Shown: positions 4,251 through 47,939 of the stretch, in pieces | Position numbering within the stretch: the stretch's first letter is position 1 | Layout: each line of letters starts with the position of its first letter | NCBI GenBank assembly: GCA_963681505.1 | Contig: OY811977.1 | Location: forward strand, 5,808,961 to 5,872,960 | DNA length: 64,000 nucleotides | Direction of reading: 5' to 3' | Source of the DNA: Eunapius fragilis | Taxonomy: Eukaryota > Porifera > Demospongiae > Spongillida > Spongillidae | The notes under the pieces: model-generated | What the model was told of the DNA's origin: nothing | Databases searched by the model: none | Seen by the model: only the letters and a program-made list of their open reading frames with translations | Translations under genes and position numbers: made by a program

Positions 4251-6290
4251 TCATGTCCAAGTCCACTGCCAGCTTCTGATGCAGGCACGATGGCAGGTTT
4301 GGAGCACTACATCCCTGAACTTATTGTGCCTGGATACAGCATCACCACCTTGCTTACATGTTAAGGCATGGTGTCCTAGGGGATCCAAAGGGTGTTCTGG
4401 GCACAAAGCACAGGGAGGTGAGCCAAGTGAGGTGTCTAGCCCTAGCCACCACTTGATGGCCATTTGGTGTTCATTGGGGTCTAGGCTTAGACACAGGCCT
4501 GGAGATGGAACAGCAGAGAACCATGCAGAGGCATGGGGCAAAGACACTGACAGGAGATGAGCCTTGTCAGCAGTAGAGCTCTCTGTGAGAAGAGAGTTAA
4601 ATTGAGTAGACTCTAATGTGGCTAACAAAGTGTGCTGTCGACAAGGAGTAGTGGCCAGACTGTCGACATCAACTGCACTCTCAGGGGGTACAGGCATGTT
4701 GTACACCGCCTCAACCAGGAAGTTATCTGAAGGTGAGGTGAGGCCAGCAGTATTGATGGATGCAATAAATGCTGCAGTAGAGTGGAGTGCTAGTAAGCGG
4801 AGACCCAGGCCACCTCTGCTTAAACTCAACTGGGCCTGCTTCCAAGAGCTGTCAGTAGTGTGAATGTGTCTGACCTGCTGATCGAAGGCATGCAGCGCAT
4901 CTAATGCCAGGGATGGAGGAGTGGACCGTGCAACGTGGACCAATTTAGTAAATCCAACACACATGCGTAGCAAAATGAGAGCAATCTGAGGATCACATGA
5001 GCCAAGCTTCTCCAAAGAGGATAACAATATGGAAGCAGCAGCACGTTTGGAGGCAATAAAGGATGAGCAAAAGGCCACATCTCCTATGGGTGCTCCAAGG
5101 ATGGTAAGGTTGGGTGTGCAAGATTTGTTCATCTCTGAAGGAAATAAGCTCAGGTCACCTTGACTGAAAAGCTCACATTTTGGTGGATTTAAATGAAGCC
5201 CCAGTGAGGGACCTAAATCCTGATGTACCACATGTTGGACAGAGGAAGATGGACCAGCCACCACCCCATCATCCAGGTACCAAGCATTAAAAAGTAGATC
5301 TTGGCAGCTATCATCCTTGGCAATGGTAAGAACCAGATGGTGCATGACCAAGGCGAAGTAGAAGGGGCCCAGAGGATTCCCTTGCTGCACACCAGTCTCT
5401 AAGGTCAAAGTTCCCATAGAATGCCGAAGGAAAGAGTGTTGCCTGTAGCACCACTGGGTCCATGGGAGTAGGAGGGGGAAATGTAGGGCACATTGATCAA
5501 GGAGGGACTGCACGGCGAGATACTAAGTTAAAGGCATTTTTCATATCCACCTTAATGCATACAAAACCAGGACCACTCACATCCTTGGGTGAGAGCAACG
5601 CCGAGCTGGAAAGGCTGTATGTAAGAAAGCGGAAGCATCCTTTTTAATTAAACCACAAAGACATTTGCTTGTGAGTCGGTGAAGTGATTCACCCACCGCA
5701 ATGGGCCTAATGTCCTGTGCGCCTTTCCTTAAAGCAACTAGGCTACCCCCTGCCATGTACTGAGAAATTGCAGCTGGAGCTTGTCCTGAGGCCAGGATGT
5801 TGATTACACCTCGAAGGAGGGAGCAAATAGAAGTAGGAACTGGAACTTCAGCCACATCAAGGAGGTGTTGGATGCACAAGCCTGTGGAGCCAGCTGCAAA
5901 AGCCTTGGGGAAGTACCAAAGGGCAGAGAGCACATTGAAGTCTGGTGGTAAGGTTTGAGAGGACATGCAAGTGACTGATGAGCAGGAGGAACTGGGGGGG
6001 GGGGGGGGGGGGGTCTCATGGGATGTTTAGCTGATAGTTTCGTCCATGTGTCCTCAGTATTGGGAGCTAGGCCTGAAGAGATAAGGATCTGGCAAGCCTT
6101 TCCATGAAGCCGTCCTTGGCGAGAGAAATTGCTTCAGCAATCCTCTTTTCATTTACATCAGGAGATGAAGACCAAGACACATGCTGTTTTGTACGAGCCC
6201 AGAGGGAAGCAAACTGACCACACTCCCAGGCCTCACACAGCAGTTTGATGTCAGTAGGGTGGTGACGGCGACCACGGCATGGGGCAGAGG
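4251..6290 (-). mobile_element. Decayed reverse transcriptase element, R2-annotated invertebrate type
   Basis: On the minus strand the finger region is visible near 5640-5790 (IRPIAVGESLHRLTSKCL), then the palm: QQGNPLGPFYFALV near 5370 and the catalytic motif YLDDGVV near 5265, followed by GLHLNPPKCELFS and LGAPIG. The C-terminal end (4251-4340) has a CALC...HALTCKQGG zinc-ribbon-like stretch. This order is typical of a reverse transcriptase family abundant in sponge and cnidarian genomes that databases often label 'type-1 retrotransposable element R2'. No long terminal repeats or integrase were seen beside it. It is broken, with several interruptions including a G-homopolymer insertion, and is an old copy. 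Whether it is a true LINE or another retroelement class I cannot settle from sequence alone. Confidence 0.8.
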
Positions 6291-8059: not shown

Positions 8060-10945
8060 AGTGATGATGATTATGACAATGATTATGGTAGTGGTGGTAA
8101 CGATGAAAGGGATAGTGATGAGAGTAATAACGCTGATGGCGAAATGGATAATGACATGAGTCAGTCTTCATCATCAGAATATGTGAATAAATCATGGAAG
8201 AATATAGCCATGTTTATGAAGAAGCATAATCTAACAGATTGTGCCGGGGGTGAACTGCTAAAGTTATTAGAAGAACACAATCAAAATGATGAATTACCTT
8301 CCTCCATTTATGTGTTAAAGAAAAGCTTTTAGTTTAGATGTTGATGTAGTAAAGTATTGTGCTCTATGTTTAAAGGAGGTGACGGAATTGTGTGATAATA
8401 AGCAGCATAAAGGAATTTGTTGACACATGATATTACCCTTTGAAGAACAAATGAAGAGGATGTACGAAGGTGCGTTTGTAAATATCAGTCAGTATTTGCA
8501 CTAAGGGATATGTTACAACAGTAGGTAGCATGTGCAATTGAAAGCAATTGAAATAAACGTATACAAGAGCATTGAGAATACTTAACTTCACAATGAATTA
8601 AGTTACGGACAGTTGTACAAAATCTAATTGTGCGTGAAATAGTATGAAAATGTATAAGGTGCTTTTTGTCATATATTATTCCATTTACGGGTATTAATAA
8701 ATTTAAATACTTATTATTCATTGTAGGGATGTGGGAGATATTGAAGGAACAACATAGCAAGCGGAAAAATGACAAAGATGTTATTACAGATATATACGAT
8801 GCTGATGCTCTGAGTTCAGATCCATTTTTTGATTTCCCAGAAAATGCAGGAATTATGCTTTGTACTGACGGTGTTCCTGTGTTTAAATCTTCAGGTATGT
8901 AATATTGATATATAAATATACAGAATGATGTCACTCTTTATTTCCAGGAAATGGTTTCTGGCCTATTGAACTTGTCATTGTTAATTTGCCACTCCATATC
9001 AGAGTTAATCGTAAATACATAATATTAGCTAGTATATGGTATGGACTTACTAAACCAGACATGAATATACTGTTGAAACCTGTTTTAAGTAAACTACATG
9101 AGCTTCATACAAATGGTACAACTCTTATAGTCCGGGACAGCATTGAGGAAGTAAAAATAATGTGCCATTTATTTATTTTAAAGGTGTCTTTGGGGTCCGA
9201 TAAGAACGTTCCTTATATTGGTTTCACTAGCCCAACTCGTTTTAACAAAAAATTCAGTGAGTTGAATTATAACTATAAACATTATTTCACAATTAGCAGC
9301 TAATTATATTCATTGAAAACACTTGCCGTTACATAAAAACGCTGCAGTTAGGAACAAAGGAAAGGGCTTATCGATGAGATTGTTGAGCAACGCTCTTACC
9401 AATTACAGCTGTTAAGTAAACTATGGGTTCACAGTTACGTTGTTTTGCTTACACAAGGTTAAATATGGCTCCAGTAATGAGGCAAAAACTTTAAAAACTT
9501 GTCTTGAAAATCTTATGGACAGTTTTTAAGCAAAAAATGAGATTTTAGGTATTTTTGGATATCATTACATGTAGAATCAAAGTATGATTTTTAATTTTGG
9601 ACGCGGTACTGAAATATTGTCAAACTGAATAATTTTTTTTAGTACCCCCAATAAACTTGACTTCAAGTTACGCTATATATAGTTTCGTTTTCTCACCATA
9701 CATAGCTTACATATTTTACCGAATTGTGGTGATTGATTTCCTATGAATATAATTAAAATACATGCTACATAAACGTATACTTCCTTGATGCTGTCCAGGA
9801 CTTTAATACAACCGATGGAACTAAAACACTGAAATCTAAGTTGTTATTATGTGTTTTCGACCTTCCAGCAAGAGCTATGGCTGTGAATATGAAAGAGTTT
9901 AATGGGTATTATGGATGCTTAATTTGTTTAGACAAAGGAATACGCATAGGCAAACAAAATTTACCTACAGAGCCGCATAATGAACGAACTATGGAAATGA
10001 TGATAAAGTATGCACTGGCTAAGGGCATTTCAATATATGGAGTGAAAGGTCCATCAGTTTTAAATATATATTGTGAAACATGTTGTTATAGATTACATGC
10101 ATTGCGTGTTATTAGGTGTAGTAAAACAGCTTCTTGATATTAGGTTGGATCCATCATATAGTTCATTTTATTATTATATAAATCCTACAAAGGCAAAAAT
10201 TAAAAAGTATTTGCTTAACATAAAACCCCAGATATTTTTAGAATACATGCCCGTTTTCTACTTGAAAGAGTGCATTGGAAAGCCTCAGAATACAGGGCAT
10301 GGTTGTTGTATTCTTCTCTACCAATATTGATCCAAGTTTTACCTGGTGACTATGTTCACCATTATGCATTATTAGTTAGTTCAATGCATGTGTTATTGCA
10401 GTAGAGGATCTGAAATTTTCCCAAAAAGCTCTGAATGCATTTTATGTTATACTGCCTACTTTATACTCACAGCATGTGTGCTCAGCAAATATGCATGCGT
10501 TAATTCATTTGCCTCTATGTGTTGCGCGATGGGGACCCTTGTGGGCATATTCCATGTTTGGACAAGAAATTTATCATAGTAATCTCAAGCGAAAAATTCA
10601 TGGTACTCGTAATGTTTTGCCAAAGATTTGTAAATTTATGAAACTTGAGTACTTGCATGATAACTTCACTTCATTACCATAATTGGATGTAAATGTGGGG
10701 AAACTTAAGCTGGTAATCCTTTTGCCTGAAGAGAGAAAGGCATTTCTAAAAATAGGTATTAACATAACTGGACCCATTGTAACTTTCCGTGGGTTGCAGA
10801 GGCTGTATGATCAAATACACTCATACAGCCAGAAATCAGTAAAGAATGGGTCCATTTGTGAGATCGAACTCTTTCAGGAACTCCGTTGTCTTTGGTCCAA
10901 AAACTCCACTTGTCTCTATTGCCCCTGGAGTGAAAAAGTAGCATG
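7619..10945 (+). pseudogene. CACTA/EnSpm-type transposase (Tnp2 family), decayed
   Basis: Several blocks in order match the metazoan EnSpm transposase. 7619-8332 is an N-terminal open frame: 12-residue repeats (GLNIDSGGTENI), an Asp-rich tract, then a conserved end (LLKLLEEHNQND...SSIYVLKKSF). 8350-8404 gives a zinc-binding-like CALCLKEVTELCDNKQHKGIC-type stretch. 8730-8894 reads ITDIYDAD...ILCTDGVPVFKSS-like and continues after a clean 53-bp intron (8895-8947, GTATGT...TTTCCAG) with GFWPIELVIVNLP and KPDMNILLKP. After a probable 614-bp intron (9184-9797) comes DFNTTDGTKTL, VFDLPARAMAVNM and YGCLICLDKG. Then, in shifted frames, DYMHCVLLGVVKQLL (about 10090) and HALIHLPLCVARWGPLWAYS (about 10490). 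Frameshifts between 10060 and 10480 and in-frame stops elsewhere show it is not functional. No terminal CACTA repeats were identified. Confidence 0.82.
7720..8080 (+). repeat. 36-bp coding tandem repeat followed by a (GAT)n tract
   Basis: Seven to eight units of 36 bp encode GLNIDSGGTENI-like 12-mers. They are followed by GATGAT repeats encoding poly-Asp. Both lie within the N-terminal open frame of the CACTA-type transposase, an expansion not needed for transposase activity. Confidence 0.9.
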
Positions 10946-14571: not shown

Positions 14572-15809
14572 CCTAAGATATCAGACACTGCTTCTTCCCC
14601 TTGGTTGTACCAGGAAATGGTGATAAATGAGGAGGTTGACCAAACACCAGCTGGTAAGGAGTTGTCTTTGTTGTTGCATGCATGCAAGTGTTCATTTTAT
14701 CTGCAATTATAAATATCACTTACTGATGTAGTAGATAATTATCCTTACATTGAATTTCATGTAGCCAGTCTGTCCAGGACTTAATTCCCTTGCTTTCATG
14801 AAAATGACAAGCTATCATTTCTTCCACTTTCGCATTGCCTCTTTCTACCAGACCTTGGCTTTGAGGATGGCGTGGTCTGCCATTGACAATGGTAATTTCA
14901 CCAGGCCAGTTCTTTACCAATTCGGCTATCAAAGTGCTTGCAAATTCTCGCCCATTGTCAGATTGCAATATTTTGGGTAAACCAAGATATGCAAAAACTT
15001 TTGTTGCAAGGTTCCAGGCCACCTCTTTGCTACTCTTCCTCTGACAGGCAAATAGTACATGGAATTTAGACCAATGGTCCATGTAGTGTCCTATTCAATT
15101 ATATGGTCCATCAGGTCGGTGGCGCATGTCTATTAGGTCAACCTAGCTTGTTAAACACCACTGTCAACTTTGTTTTGTTGTGCATAAAGTGTAACTCACC
15201 TGACCTCTACTCATAAATCCTGATGCAATGATGGGTTTCAGGGGTGCTTGATTGCACTGTACTTTTTGAGTACTGCAAAGGGGGCACAGGCTCACAAACT
15301 TCTGTACAGCTGACAGTGGAAGACACTCATAGCATGCCGAAATCTGTAATAGTAAAAACCATACTCTATTATACAGTATAATATTCATGAATCAAATTCT
15401 ACCAGAATACCTCTGCAAGAGTTTTTTTTGTAGCCCACATGACCTCGCTCTTGGCAATGCACCCTGTGAAGTATCTCAATGAAGTCTTCAACATAAGCCA
15501 CTCTTCTAACGTGGCTAAGCATGGTGGTGTCACTATAATCCTGTATGGTTTAAAACAGAAAAAACAAGTACAAGTAAAAAATATTTATCACATTTTTCTA
15601 ATGCTCACCTTTTTTCTGGCAGGCAAGCAAAGCACATCCGACAGACCAAGCGCAGGATAGGACATTAGGGAAAATTTGCGTGACTTTACCCTGCCAGGTT
15701 TCTTCCCTGACAAGAATGAATCCACCAAAAACGTCTTGAAGGTGTCCTTTTGATCATCCATATCGCATATATAACCGATCCGCTCTAAATAACGCCTAGC
15801 AACTGACAA
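14572..15809 (-). CDS. Integrase-core gene, KRBA2/GIN-like, intron-containing
   Basis: Minus-strand blocks in order: an N-terminal block at 15612-15809 ending at a GTGAGC donor; a second exon-like block about 15420-15530; a block at 15205-15358 with a CPLC zinc-binding pair (SLCPLCSTQKVQC) bounded by AG and GTGAGT; and the integrase catalytic core at 14735-15145 with MDHWSKFHVLF, QSDNGREF and QSQGLVERGN, that is the D, D, E catalytic set with about 37 residues between the last two. A small block near 14615-14653 reads LVFGQPP, normally found just after the core. This is the arrangement of KRBA2- and SCAND3-like host proteins taken from an LTR-type or Ginger-type integrase. No long terminal repeats, gag or reverse transcriptase flank it, and it is spliced, so it may be a domesticated gene; an old element copy is the alternative. 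Confidence 0.62.
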
Positions 15810-34600: not shown

Positions 34601-37600
34601 GGTTTCCCCCCTTTCATTCTGATTTAATTCACGTATTGTGAAAATTTTCTAGGTACTTTTGCTTAATTAGACTTGATAAGACCGTGTATAGGCTTTTAGG
34701 CTTTTTGTGTATCAAAGCCTAACATCGACTAAGGCGAGTCCTCCAGCAAATTCTAAAGCTATTGGTGCAATTTTCATTGCTTAAAAGTTTTCCGGTCCCG
34801 AGTTATGAGTTCCCAAGAAGCAGAAGCAGAAGAAGCAGAAGCAGAATCAGAAGACGACCCGCCCATTATTTTTGGAAGGGGAACGAGGACAGCTGTATTT
34901 TTTATTCTCGACAACCACGCGGTTCTACGACGTGAAACGAAAATGAAACTACTCAGTTTTGATTTCTAGATCGATTGGTGCAACAAGTTAGACAATCCGA
35001 TCATCGGGAGCGAAGCTACGGTAGGCTCGCGGGATTTTAATTAGATTCATAGTCGGGGTCAAAACCTATATGGAAGTCTATTGCGAGACTTCCGATTGAG
35101 GGTATGACGTAAGAAAAGATCACAATAAGAACGAATCCTGCAGATCCCATTGAAACGGATACCGTAAAAAAATCAGCCCGTATAATTGAATTGATTCCAT
35201 TGTATTGATATAAGCCTATCTATGTGTAGCTCTCTATATAAACATTGCGGAAACTCTACCTGAATTTTGTAGATAAAAGCTAGCTCTCAATAATGCTTTG
35301 ACAATGCATTACTCTTCAGCCACATTACACCTCGATGCTATAGCTTTCCTGCCTAAGCCGTTTCCGCACGCATTAGACATCTCAAATCGCATTGAACCTC
35401 ATCAATCTAGATTGATCCGGTGTGTAGACAGAAACTCCTAATGACCATGCAGTTTGGATGATGCCACTCACTAAACATCTGCAACATTAATCACTAATAG
35501 GTATCACAAACTCTTACAAAACCTACAGAATTTGTACAGAAGAGCTCTTTGATCAATTAATTCACACCCCTTGAAGCGAAGTATCACCATCTAATGTTAT
35601 AAGCACGCGTCCTGCGTGTCTAGTTCAAACGATTGTGAGACAAAATAGTTTCTTATATTAGAATTACCTTTTTTTAAAAATAAGTGAAAGGAATATTTCC
35701 ATTTCTACCGAAATGGAAAGTTATAAGTAAAGCAACATTGTACTGAATGAACTTCTATAATTAAAAATTCAATGTATGATCATTCAGTGTCGGGCAGTCC
35801 GATTATGAACGGTTTTGCCTATGCAGAAAATGAAAGTTGTTGCCATTTCAAGGAGATTAGCTATCACAAATATAGTTTCATATTTATTTAGCATAAACTT
35901 GCATTTTATATTTTTATTGCAACTACAGATAATGAAATCACCTACTTGTTTGCTGCGAGAATACTGTTAATACTGTTTGTATCGATTTTCATATTGTATG
36001 AGAGCTTGCAGCTGACAACCCAGCAGCAACGATACTTCCTAGACTGGCATAATTATCTCCAATTGTTTGTATATATTGGGACAATTATTTTTGTTTCCCA
36101 ATTTGGAACCAAATATGGATGTGAAAGTTCTGCTATATGGCAAATTGGCGCGTTAGTGGTTGCTGCAGCATGGTTTAATCTTATTGCACTTCTGCGGTGT
36201 GTACCAACTATTGGAGCTCCTATCAATCTTCTCTTCATAATTGTACACAACTATATCAAGCTTGTATACCTGCCTGTACTACTAGTAGTGAGCTTTGGCC
36301 TCCCGTTCTATATGCTCTTTGCACGTGATGAGGACAGTATAGTGAGTTGACTTATTAACACAAATGCATCGAGTGTTAGTTGTACACAATTATACCACTT
36401 TATTTGTTAGAGCAAAGTGGGCATACTGAAGGCATTTTCAACACCAGCATGGTCTGTTTTGAGGACACTGGTTGGCACAACAGGAGACACGGGCTTTGAT
36501 ACAACCTTTGTGGAAGCTCCGCTGCCTTATTCCCCTGTGGGAATTATTCTCTATATAACTTTCCTAATACTAATACTGGTGTTATTCAATAACATGTTGG
36601 TAAGCAACCACCATATGATACAGAATTACACCCATATCTCTGTCTTTCAGATTGGAATTGCAATTGGTGAGAACATCCAGATATTAGATGTCATTAACCT
36701 ACAATCCCAGGTATTTAATTTACTCATGTGGTATTTAAATATGCATAGGAAGAAAATACCCTTCTTCATCATCTTTAAAAACCCAATACAGTAACGCAGC
36801 TGCATAGCCAATTAGTCTGCTTTTACTTCTCGTAGCTATCACCTTAAATTGTGTAATTTGTCAAAATATAAATTACTTGTGCTCAGTAGCTAAAAGTATG
36901 ATATAATACATTGCACACCTTTGGTGATCACCAATGTATTAAGAAATTCTAACATGATATGTAAACATGATATGTAGATTTGGCAAGAGGGACAAGAAGC
37001 ATGCACTAGTGATTGTTTTTAAAATATATCTTCATGCAAGTAATCTAATGATATGCATGCATTTTATGTATTTATCAAAATCAGTATTGTTATGAAGTAC
37101 AGTTTTTAAGAATACGTTACCTGCTTGAATGGTTACATCAACTCCATAAGTATTTGTGTTGGCTGTATAAAGTATCAAATGTAAAATTATGGTGCATGTA
37201 CCTCCATAGCAAAATTCGAGAGTAATCACCTACACAATGCCGATGGCTCCATTATGTGCCAGGCAGGCAATGAACATGCATAACATTGCATCCATACTTT
37301 AATACACAAGTCAGTGAAATTAAGATGAATGAAATACTACCATGCAGTCAAGATCAGTTGTATGAGCAGAGCAATTCACACTACTATCACTGCTTGCTAC
37401 TTTTTCAGATTGTTATATATGGGGGCTAATGTGTGGTCCTTTTCCTCATGACATATTTCTATCTGTGTGAGTGTGAAGAAATTAATGGGAAGATATATAT
37501 ATTTTTACTACAGTTGAGACGCATTATACATTTTAATACAGACACTATATATTTAATTGACATTCCTAATACATTATAAACGTTCCTGAAAGCCACCTCA

Positions 37601-44455: not shown

Positions 44456-47400
44456 TTAGCAGGTCCATTTGCAATAATTACTTGGACCCGCACAGCATTT
44501 GTCCTCTTGTGAGTTCCATGTCAAGCAAATCTGTTCATAGGAAGGATTTTTTGCCTCACAACATGGGCATGTGCAAGTGTTCTTTAGATAGTTGAAACTG
44601 GATGTGTGAAAAGAGTAAAATATCAATTAATATATAGCAAATAGAGTACTAAATTTCATTTGCCACATTTCAAACTTACATTGCAAAGCAAAATTATGTG
44701 GCATACAGTAAAATTGGTGTCAGATGGTCAGAAATGTACATAATAGTGGTATACGTGTACAGTTTTTGTATGGAACGATGGGAACAGATGGACTCTGGCT
44801 ATTCTTACCTGCATTTCTTTTTGGGGTTTCCATCACAGATAGCCTTGTTACAATCATAAGGTGTGGAGGCATCTTTGCATGTAGTTTGAACACACAAGCA
44901 GTCGCTTGAGAGCTTGTAGCCTTTATCACATTGCCTTTTGCATGAACACTTGCAAGTGTCATAGTCAAGCTCATATGGTTTATCGCAGTACTGCAATGAG
45001 CAAGTGCATTTGCACAGCTCAGAATTCCAGATTTGGTTGTAGGGGCAGGTGTTGTACGTTGGGCATTCACAGGTGCACGTGTTGTTGTTCACTGTTTTAG
45101 GGTAAGGGCAACTTGTTTCATGACATATGCATTGACAGCTGTCTTCATCCCAGACTAGTGGGTAGGTGCAATAGGATTTTACGGGACATTCGCATTGGCA
45201 GGATTGGTTGTTAAAGGACTTCGGTGGTGAACAATAGCTGTCCTTGTTTGGGCATTCACATTGGCATGTATATTCATTAAAGGACTGGCCGTATGGGCAG
45301 TTAGCTGGCTTATAAGGACATTCACAGTCACAACTCGTTTTATTGAATACCTGTGGACCAGGACAGTACTTCTCTACAGGGCATTGGCACTGACATGTCT
45401 CATTGATAAATACATGGGCCTTGCTGGGACACTCCTTTGTCTTGTTCAGACACTCGCATTCACAACTGTACTCATTCAGCACCTGCGGGGGTGGACAATA
45501 CTCCTCTGTAGGGCACTTACATTGGCAGGTGTCGTAATCGAAAACTTGAGCATAACCTTCGCATTTTTTTTCATACGCACATTCGCACTGGCATGTATCG
45601 GCATTGAATACTTTGCCCCTCGGACAGTAAATTCCTTTGTTAGCGCATTCACATTGGCAAGTGTTGTCATTGAAGATTTTTCCGTAGGGACAGCTTTGTG
45701 GTTTGTAGGGGCATTCACAGTTGCAACTTGTAGCATTGAATACCTTTGGCCTCGTACAGACCTTTATTATTGGGCACTTACATTGGCAGGTGTCGTAATC
45801 GAACACTTGAACATAATCCTTGCATTTTGTTTCATACGCACATTCGCACTGGCATGTATCGGCATTGAATACTTTGCCCCTCGGACAGTAAATTCCTTTG
45901 TTAGCGCATTCACATTGGCATGTGTTGTCATTGAAGATTTTTCCGTAGGGACAACTTTGTGGTTTGTAGGGGCATTCACAGTTGCAACTTGTAGCATTGA
46001 ATACCTTTGGCCTCGTACAGACCTTTATTATTGGGCACTTACATTGGCAGGTGTCGTAATCGAACACTTGAACATAATCCTTGCATTTTGTTTCATACGC
46101 ACATTCGCACTGGCATGTATCGGCATTGAATACTTTGCCCCTCGGACAGTAAATTCCTTTGTTAGCGCATTCACATTGGCATGTGTTGTCATTGAAGATT
46201 TTTCCGTAGGGGCAACTTTGTGGTTTGTAGGGGCATTCACAGTTGCAACTTGTAGCATTGAATACCTTTGGCCTCGTACAGACCTTTATTATTGGGCACT
46301 TACATTGGCAGGTGTCGTAATCGAACACTTGAACATAATCCTTGCATTTTGTTACATACGCACATTCGCACTGGCATGTATCCGCATTGAATTCTTTGCC
46401 GCTTGGACAGTAAATTCCTTTGTTAGCGCATTCACATTGGCATGTGTTGTCATTGAAGATTTTTCCGTAGGGACAGCTTTGTGGTTTGTAGGGGCATTCA
46501 CAGTTGCAACTTGTAGCATTGAATACCTTTGGCCTCGTACAGACCTTTATTATTGGGCACTTACATTGGCAGGTGTCGTAATCGAACACTTGAGCATAAT
46601 CCTTGCATTTTGTTACATACGCACATTCGCACTGGCATGTATCCGCATTGAATTCTTTGCCGCTTGGACAGTAAATTCCTTTGTTAGCGCATTCACATTG
46701 GCAAGTGTTGTCATTGAAGATTTTTCCGTAGGGACAGCTTTGTGGTTTGTAGGGGCATTCACAGTTGCAACTTGTAGCATTGAATACCTTTGGCCTCGTA
46801 CAGACCTTTATTATTGGGCACTTACATTGGCAGGTGTCGTAATCGAACACTTGAGCATAATCCTTGCATTTTGTTACATACGCACATTCGCACTGGCATG
46901 TATCCGCATTGAATTCTTTGCCGCTTGGACAGTAAATTCCTTTGTTAGCGCATTCACATTGGCATGTGTTGTCATTGAAGATTTTTCCATAGGGACAACT
47001 TTGTGGTTTGTAGGGGCATTCGCAAATGCAACTTGTGGGATTGAATATTTTGGGGTTTGGACAGTAATTTATCACTGGGCACTTACACTCGCATGTTTCG
47101 TAGTCAAATTGTTGCGCCTCACTGCTGCATTTATACGTAATGTTCTGACACTCGCAGTTGCACGTGAGCGCATTGAAGACTTTACCATTTGGACAGTACG
47201 CGTCCTTGTTTGGACACTCGCATGCGCAGGTATAAGGATTAAATACCTGAGAGGGCGGGCAGCTGGCGGGCTTGTAAGGGCACTCACAGCTACAGGTGTC
47301 TTCATTAAACTTCTGTGGCGCGTAACACTGCTGTACCTTCGGGCACTGACATTTGCATGTCTCCAAGTTGTAGATGTGACCTTCCTTCTCGCAGGTTTTG

Positions 47401-47865
47401 GGTCCGTCAATGCACACGCATCTGCAGGTGGTGGTGTTAAAATACTTAGGCGGCACGCAATAAGGAACGCTATTGCATTTGCAATCGCAAGTCTTAGGAT
47501 CAAGCGATTGTCCAGGCGGACATTGCGCGTATGGAGGATACGCAATTTTGCATCCACATTCGCACGTGCCCGGCTTGAGCTGTTGACCATACGGGCAGCT
47601 TTTGATGGAGCATGGTTTGCAGCAGCACGCGTCCTTGTCAAAGTAGTTGTAGGCCGGGCAAGACCTGTACTCGCATATTGCGCTTTCGACAACCTATATA
47701 AATTTAGGGCAATGCGGATTGATCACACAACTACACAAGATATATACATCCATGCGGCGAGAAATATTTAAGACAAAGGGGAGGAGTAGCCGGTGCTACC
47801 GCACTTACCATAAATGCAGCGGCTGCAATAACCGCTGTCACAATCAGTATATTTTGTGTCGGCAT
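44456..47865 (-). CDS. Secreted Cys-rich repeat protein, Balbiani-ring-3/VEGF-C silk-homology type, 1027 aa
   Basis: Three exons on the minus strand: 47809-47865 (19 codons), 44809-47693 (2885 bp) and 44456-44597 (46 codons plus stop). Splice sites are GTAAGT...TATATAG and GTAAGA...CATCCAG; phases (0, then 2) fit exactly. The start is MPTQNILIVTAVIAAAAF, a signal peptide, so the product is exported. The body is about 40 units of roughly 22 residues, each ending C-x-C-x-C with a preceding (V/I)FN or FDY (for example KIFNDNTCQCEC). This is the spacing of the Balbiani ring 3 repeat also found in the VEGF-C/D tail. The middle is an 87-residue higher-order repeat (four units, 261 bp) present five full times plus one partial. 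The C-terminal exon has a different pattern (CTCPCCEAKN, CCAGPSNYC). Likely a disulfide-rich extracellular structural or adhesive protein; exact role unknown. ATTAAA about 105 bases past the stop may be its poly(A) signal. Confidence 0.9.
45450..47050 (-). repeat. 261-bp higher-order repeat within the Cys-rich gene
   Basis: The same sequence recurs at exactly 261-bp spacing (for instance the GTAGCATTGAATACCTTTGG word at about 45726, 45987, 46248, 46509 and 46770). Adjacent copies share private variants: two carry CPRGKVFNAD with CAYETK, others CPSGKEFNAD with CAYVTK, showing recent duplication or gene conversion between neighbours. Confidence 0.93.
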
Positions 47866-47931: not shown

Positions 47932-47939
47932 ATTATATA
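47932..47939 (-). promoter_or_regulatory. TATA box of the Cys-rich protein gene
   Basis: TATATAAT on the minus strand, about 67 bases upstream of the start codon at 47865, the right distance for a short 5' leader. Flanked by a GCGCGC run. Confidence 0.55.

Follow-up and report, generated by a model that had tools for sequence, protein, structure and literature searches.

What kind of protein is encoded by a sponge gene in which one short cysteine motif returns about 40 times? This question is raised by a gene on the minus strand of a 64,000-nucleotide stretch of the Eunapius fragilis genome (assembly GCA_963681505.1, contig OY811977.1, here C7, positions 5,808,961 to 5,872,960; this whole stretch is referred to as the window). 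On balance it was considered probable that the product is a secreted demosponge protein of the BR3P-like (CXCXC) kind, which would form disulfide-bonded rods and serve in the matrix, in fibres or as an adhesive. Positions in the window are given without prefix and those on the contig with C7. The limits assigned to the gene in a first-pass annotation, 44456-47865, proved exact, and its parts are the following:

47865-44456 (-): whole gene, three exons; spliced frame open over 1027 codons, TAA stop
47933..47939 (-): TATA-like heptamer, 74 bases 5' of the ATG, from a pattern search
47809..47865 (-): exon 1, 19 codons, with the ATG and the hydrophobic core of a probable signal peptide; phase 0 join at GTAAGT
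47694..47808 (-): intron 1, 115 bp, GT..AG, by direct reading; frame kept
44809..47693 (-): exon 2, rest of this probable signal peptide, then a Cys-rich N-terminal start, 40 regular units and start of the C-terminal module; 962-codon open frame
44598..44808 (-): intron 2, 211 bp, GT..AG; acceptor CCAG|TTTCAAC, in frame
44456..44597 (-): exon 3, C-terminal module with CxCPCC, ending in TAA; a similar exon in three other family genes

The gene is readable throughout and its splice sites are intact, as had been annotated. For exon 3 an acceptor at 44581 was rejected because it breaks the frame, which is kept by the one at 44597. The N-terminus is hydrophobic, with a Kyte-Doolittle mean of up to 2.93 at residues 6-16; on this hydropathy it is probably a signal peptide, as predicted before, and the protein would hence be secreted. 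The annotated TATA box is present, but as evidence it is weak because the pattern is common throughout the window, at about one per 955 bases per strand, with an estimated chance of about 15% of meeting it in 150 bases. The strand opposite the repeat exon is also open, over 846 codons (45231-47771, plus strand). The repeat most likely explains this, because once a single block is open on that strand every block is.

The protein has 1027 residues, including 186 cysteines, 36 Phe and 72 Tyr. With cleavage of the signal peptide set after residue 24, which was our choice, the mature chain contains 18.5% cysteine and has a calculated mass of 113 kDa and an isoelectric point (pI) of 6.6. It holds 12 N-glycosylation sequons, five of which read NAT and stand one in each of the young repeat blocks described below. 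The CxCxC motif occurs 42 times and C-X10/11-CXCXC 41 times. When the protein was shuffled 1000 times, the former averaged 6.0 occurrences and reached 16 at most, and the latter averaged 0.19 and reached 3 at most. Forty regular units could be delimited, in agreement with the number first estimated; each consists of a leader, a cysteine, a loop of 10 (31 units) or 11 residues (9 units) and then C-X-C-X-C. Counted back from the loop end, position five holds Phe in 33 of 41 loops and position four holds Asn or Asp in 39 of them.

In a Pfam scan of the spliced protein the CXCXC family PF03128 was found over 23 stretches, with an E value of 1.6e-91 and 294.1 bits against a gathering cut-off of 15. 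No other Pfam family was named at an E value of 0.1, including EGF and other disulfide-rich domains, and at this threshold the PDGF/VEGF domain (PF00341) was not matched either. The BR3P motif has been published as C-X10-C-X-C-X(1,3)-C (PMC10328876). Because PF03128 is the sole family found and the spacing equals this motif apart from the nine units with 11-residue loops, the assignment of the unit to the Balbiani ring 3 (BR3)/VEGF-C tail type, proposed in the first-pass annotation, is supported; that another domain family might match the unit better was a possibility it had raised, and none appeared in the scan. No solved structure of similar sequence was found at an E value of 1. AlphaFold2 models of eight units contained 16 strands, with a mean predicted local distance difference test score (pLDDT) of 84.1, and those of four diverged units contained 8 strands at a mean pLDDT of 80.4. 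Each unit is thus predicted to fold as one beta hairpin.

Within exon 2 the units are arranged in a higher order, and two block regions were distinguished:

45511..47047 (-): 261-bp higher-order repeat of four units, 87 residues, 5.9 copies according to Tandem Repeats Finder (TRF), 98% matches
47016..47279 (-): older, diverged four-unit block (units 5-8), 63% identical to a young block

The five to six copies of an 87-residue block that had been described turned out to be five near-identical blocks and a half-diverged sixth. Blocks 1-5 differ from one another by 1 to 9 bases; between each of them and block 6 there are 38 to 43 differences. When block 6 is compared with block 5, 36 of the 38 differences lie from column 142 on; its first half resembles blocks 4 and 5 and the remainder has diverged. 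Neighbouring blocks share variants, as had been observed: blocks 4-6 have five bases in common that distinguish them from blocks 1-3 (columns 89, 92, 100, 110 and 139), and blocks 3-5 share one further variant at column 160. The mean identity between units is highest at a lag of four (0.67), compared with 0.26 to 0.30 at lags 1-3 and 5-6. Outside the young blocks, units 5, 6, 7 and 8 are most similar to A, B, C and D of the block, in the same order, and units 34-36 match D, A and B; no clear block order was seen in units 1-4, 32, 33 and 37-40. Since these outer units keep the block order, the order of the four units seems to predate the array as it now stands. The young copies look like the outcome of a later round of amplification or homogenisation, and the homogenisation suggested earlier is supported because near-identical blocks adjoin a diverged block with the same unit order.

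Selection was assessed in six arrays, that of the window gene and five others in four genes, with 5/6, 28/29, 7/8, 7/8, 5/6 and 23/24 copies used per array; the diverged sixth copy of the window gene and the last copy of each other array were omitted. Among blocks 1-5 of the window gene 6 synonymous and 4 nonsynonymous changes were counted, at an expected nonsynonymous share of 82% (p 0.0035). The nonsynonymous/synonymous ratios per site, based on distinct changes, were 0.145, 0.227, 0.375, 0.367, 0.266 and 0.144 in the six arrays, with rough binomial p values from 6e-5 to 0.005. Not one of the 848 cysteine codons in these arrays was changed. The low ratios and the retention of every cysteine codon indicate that purifying selection is acting on the coded protein.

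The gene is not alone in the genome, which comprises 218.9 Mb in 24 contigs. All 41 matches obtained when the genome was searched at protein level with exon 2 as query (48 of 54 candidates scored) and all 70 matches of a search with a small relative as query (59 of 59 candidates scored) fall on C7, a contig of 10.09 Mb or 4.6% of the assembly; both counts are lower bounds. In the regions fetched around the matches 19 open frames with at least two full units were found beyond the window gene. By our count these represent 16 to 18 relatives, fragments included, because two overlapping frames (L048) are probably one gene and two others are mirror-image copies. The latter are two small CXCXC frames that lie mirrored at C7:7.236-7.246 and 7.309-7.319 Mb and are 98.4% identical over 9 kb; this pair is either an inverted duplication or an assembly duplicate. 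The window gene lies at 5.85 Mb on C7. Its relatives form a cluster at 1.415-1.493 Mb, with others at 6.83, 7.11, 7.24, 7.31, 8.61 and 8.75 Mb. The largest, at C7:1483826-1492705, runs through 2960 codons in one open frame and contains 133 CxCxC motifs. The Pfam CXCXC cut-off was exceeded in all seven paralogue stretches scanned, one of which (L045) gave two more weak Pfam matches, below their cut-offs. A genome-wide scan with PF03128 itself (306 candidates, 150 scored) returned seven matches, all in the window gene, and says little on the remaining genome because a model of 13 positions is too short for the E value. The unit pattern gave 4 matches in prokaryote genomes and 1 in viral contigs, none of which was confirmed.

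Several relatives carry tandem arrays with periods of their own:

C7:1483826-1492705: 195 bp x 29.2, then 324 bp x 7.3, within the 2960-codon frame
C7:1430663: 312 bp x 7.4
C7:1475623: 219 bp x 7.7
C7:8613392: 60 bp x 24.9
C7:8609266-8609890: 60 bp x 7.6
C7:7106567: 60 bp x 8.6

A period of 60 bp corresponds to one unit, 195 bp to three, 261 bp to four and both 312 and 324 bp to five, and the 219-bp period holds two full units and an incomplete one. No clear pairing of unit types between genes was obtained; unit 2 of the 195-bp block is equally close to A and to the old B, with a score of 78 for both. Several genes of the family appear to have been lengthened separately, each by its own repeat pattern. 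Between C7:1.415 and 1.454 Mb there are five small relatives with 3 to 7 CxCxC motifs each, four of which end in a Lys/Arg/Gly-rich tail (KGTRKG type), where the window protein is near neutral instead.

A Cys-rich tail after the repeats is common to four genes, the window gene and those at C7:1483826, 1475623 and 1458883. Downstream of it the same four genes have a final exon that carries C-x-CPCC as well as other cysteines and that, in the relatives, is 28 to 39% identical to that of the window gene, the one gene in which the splice sites were worked out. A scan for C-x-C-[PA]-CC in the fetched family regions, a set that does not include the window gene, was positive in these three relatives only. 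The exon 3 module of the window gene has no Pfam match at an E value of 0.1; it may act as a cap or cross-linker.

The CXCXC unit in sponges is already in print, and the kind to which the window gene belongs is known, because BR3P-like sponge proteins have been mentioned: in the part of a VEGF survey drawn upon here, 11 sponge blast hits are classed as false positives, five of them being genuine BR3P or BR3P-like (PMC10328876). These share motif and phylum with the window gene; in the same part they are treated as VEGF false positives, without description of gene family, repeat structure or location. No paper on the gene family, higher-order repeats or location of sponge BR3P-like genes was found in the open-access literature, covered mostly by listing. 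Outside sponges the CX10CXCXC unit is described in BR3, a salivary protein of midge larvae that weave silk, and the phylogenetic origin of the unit is called unknown, as excerpted from PMC5816233. Chironomus Balbiani ring 3, a 185-kDa secretory protein cited there, resembles the window protein in its units and in the secretion predicted for the latter; it comes from a midge salivary gland, not from a sponge, and the likeness is one of unit description and not of BR3 sequence. Muc1 of caddisfly and moth silk is, according to the portion of PMC9432349 consulted, likewise a silk component with a CXCXC motif, though this stands near the C-terminus of a mucin and does not form a long array.

The same C-X10-C-X-C-X(1,3)-C unit occurs in the silk homology domain of VEGF-C/D and cnidarian VEGFs. 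Cnidarian VEGFs typically have four such units (PMC10328876, in part), whereas the window protein has 40 regular ones and its largest relative 133 CxCxC motifs. The heparin-binding part of VEGF-A (entry 4deq) gave a weak score, and the window protein is near neutral. In VEGF-C the BR3P repeats are C-terminal, and this tail determines its matrix retention (PMC5816233, in part); in the window protein the repeats run through the whole chain. In Montipora, annotations as 'balbiani ring 3-like' were judged likely artefacts because those proteins encode VEGF domains (PMC6385260, in the passage used). Very little credence is given to the view that the sponge gene codes for a propeptide of growth-factor type or for a relative of VEGF-C in which the growth factor domain was lost or is unrecognised: the protein lacks a PDGF/VEGF domain at the threshold used, a PDGF search of the genome gave 0 matches, albeit without a working positive control, and the survey, in the part used, found no VEGF in sponges (PMC10328876).

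How, then, might the product work? The protein would string together small beta hairpins, held by disulfides, over about 1000 residues and end in a Cys-rich module. The four cysteines of each unit may find partners in their own unit or in the neighbouring ones, which would extend the chain into a rod, and the C-terminal module or unpaired cysteines may join chains. The product would then be a structural or adhesive part of the sponge matrix or of skeletal fibre. The length of the arrays would be set by unequal crossing-over or gene conversion, with selection retaining the cysteines. Several points weigh against this picture. The predicted template-modelling score (pTM) of the AlphaFold2 models, at 0.47-0.48, does not establish the shape of the rod as a whole; the p values for selection are rough because the copies within an array are not independent; binding of the heparin type is not obvious because the product is near neutral (pI 6.6). 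A 'balbiani ring protein3' is moreover reported in snail plasma in the section of PMC5433772 consulted, which suits a soluble protein equally.

That snail protein was enriched on columns with parasite larval proteins (PMC5433772, same section), as would suit a protein secreted in soluble form into the mesohyl or the surface mucus, where it would bind ligands such as microbes or glycans and where differences in length would serve avidity or diversity. Array length and period do vary strongly among the family members. This explanation is held to be unlikely, as the window protein has no domain beyond the repeat in the Pfam scan and the arrays show purifying and not diversifying selection. The high cysteine content, and the appearance of CxCxC also among the metallothionein papers listed, could speak for a metal-binding, metallothionein-like storage protein using CxC pairs. 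Metallothioneins, however, are small and cytosolic and have few or no aromatic residues. The 1027 residues of the window protein, its signal-like start, its many Phe and Tyr, the regular C-X10-C spacing and the predicted hairpins differ from this and point to disulfides, which makes metal storage very improbable. A satellite open by chance, or a dead gene, would account for the open opposite strand, and tandem repeats are plentiful in the window (32 TRF rows); yet with six arrays under selection, no cysteine codon lost, a similar exon 3 in four genes and introns in frame, such an artefact is scarcely credible.

Some further features were recorded. An ion-channel-like exon lies at 35892-36350 on the plus strand (Ion_trans, 8.9e-5, below the Pfam cut-off), and the next open frame, 36411-36794, has no Pfam match. 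Remains of mobile elements are present at 4251-5522 (-), 8929-9303 (+) and 14720-15094 (-), with matches to reverse transcriptase and integrase core (both below the Pfam cut-off) and to Transposase_21 (above it). At 580-810 there is a 30-bp tandem repeat of 7.7 copies with 97% matches, open on both strands. Elsewhere in the genome 84 cathepsin-type (Peptidase_C1) matches were obtained. Of nine stretches read, picked by position, three have CGASYAF and the others CGSCW. Loss of the catalytic cysteine with this motif marks silicatein, an enzyme of siliceous demosponges; the three are therefore regarded as silicatein-like, and they speak for a demosponge genome. One such exon, at C7:9172342-9172464, shares the contig with the CXCXC gene at 8.754 Mb, at a distance of about 0.42 Mb, and the other two are on C5 and C3. 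An innexin search of the genome gave 0 matches, without a working positive control.

Returning to the probable disulfide-bonded matrix, fibre or adhesive protein, what is added here is a family on one contig with several different higher-order repeats, cysteines strictly kept in the six arrays assessed and an end exon shared by four genes. A wider view can be put forward tentatively, as a possibility that we ourselves doubt: sponges may possess a silk-like CXCXC family of their own, of a few to more than 130 units, on one chromosome and with several genes lengthened separately, and its products would jointly supply the disulfide-linked component of the attachment matrix, the cuticle or the fibre. 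On this view the tail of VEGF-C in other animals would have been taken over, as a minor fragment, from a structural repeat that was there before VEGF. The many arrays in a phylum without recognised VEGF (PMC10328876, in part) fit the view of the repeat as a free-standing secreted protein. Several higher-order repeat lengths on one chromosome under the same constraint also provide a good case for length change in repeat proteins. Should the product turn out to be skeletal or adhesive, it could be counted among the candidates for a non-collagen component of sponge fibres.
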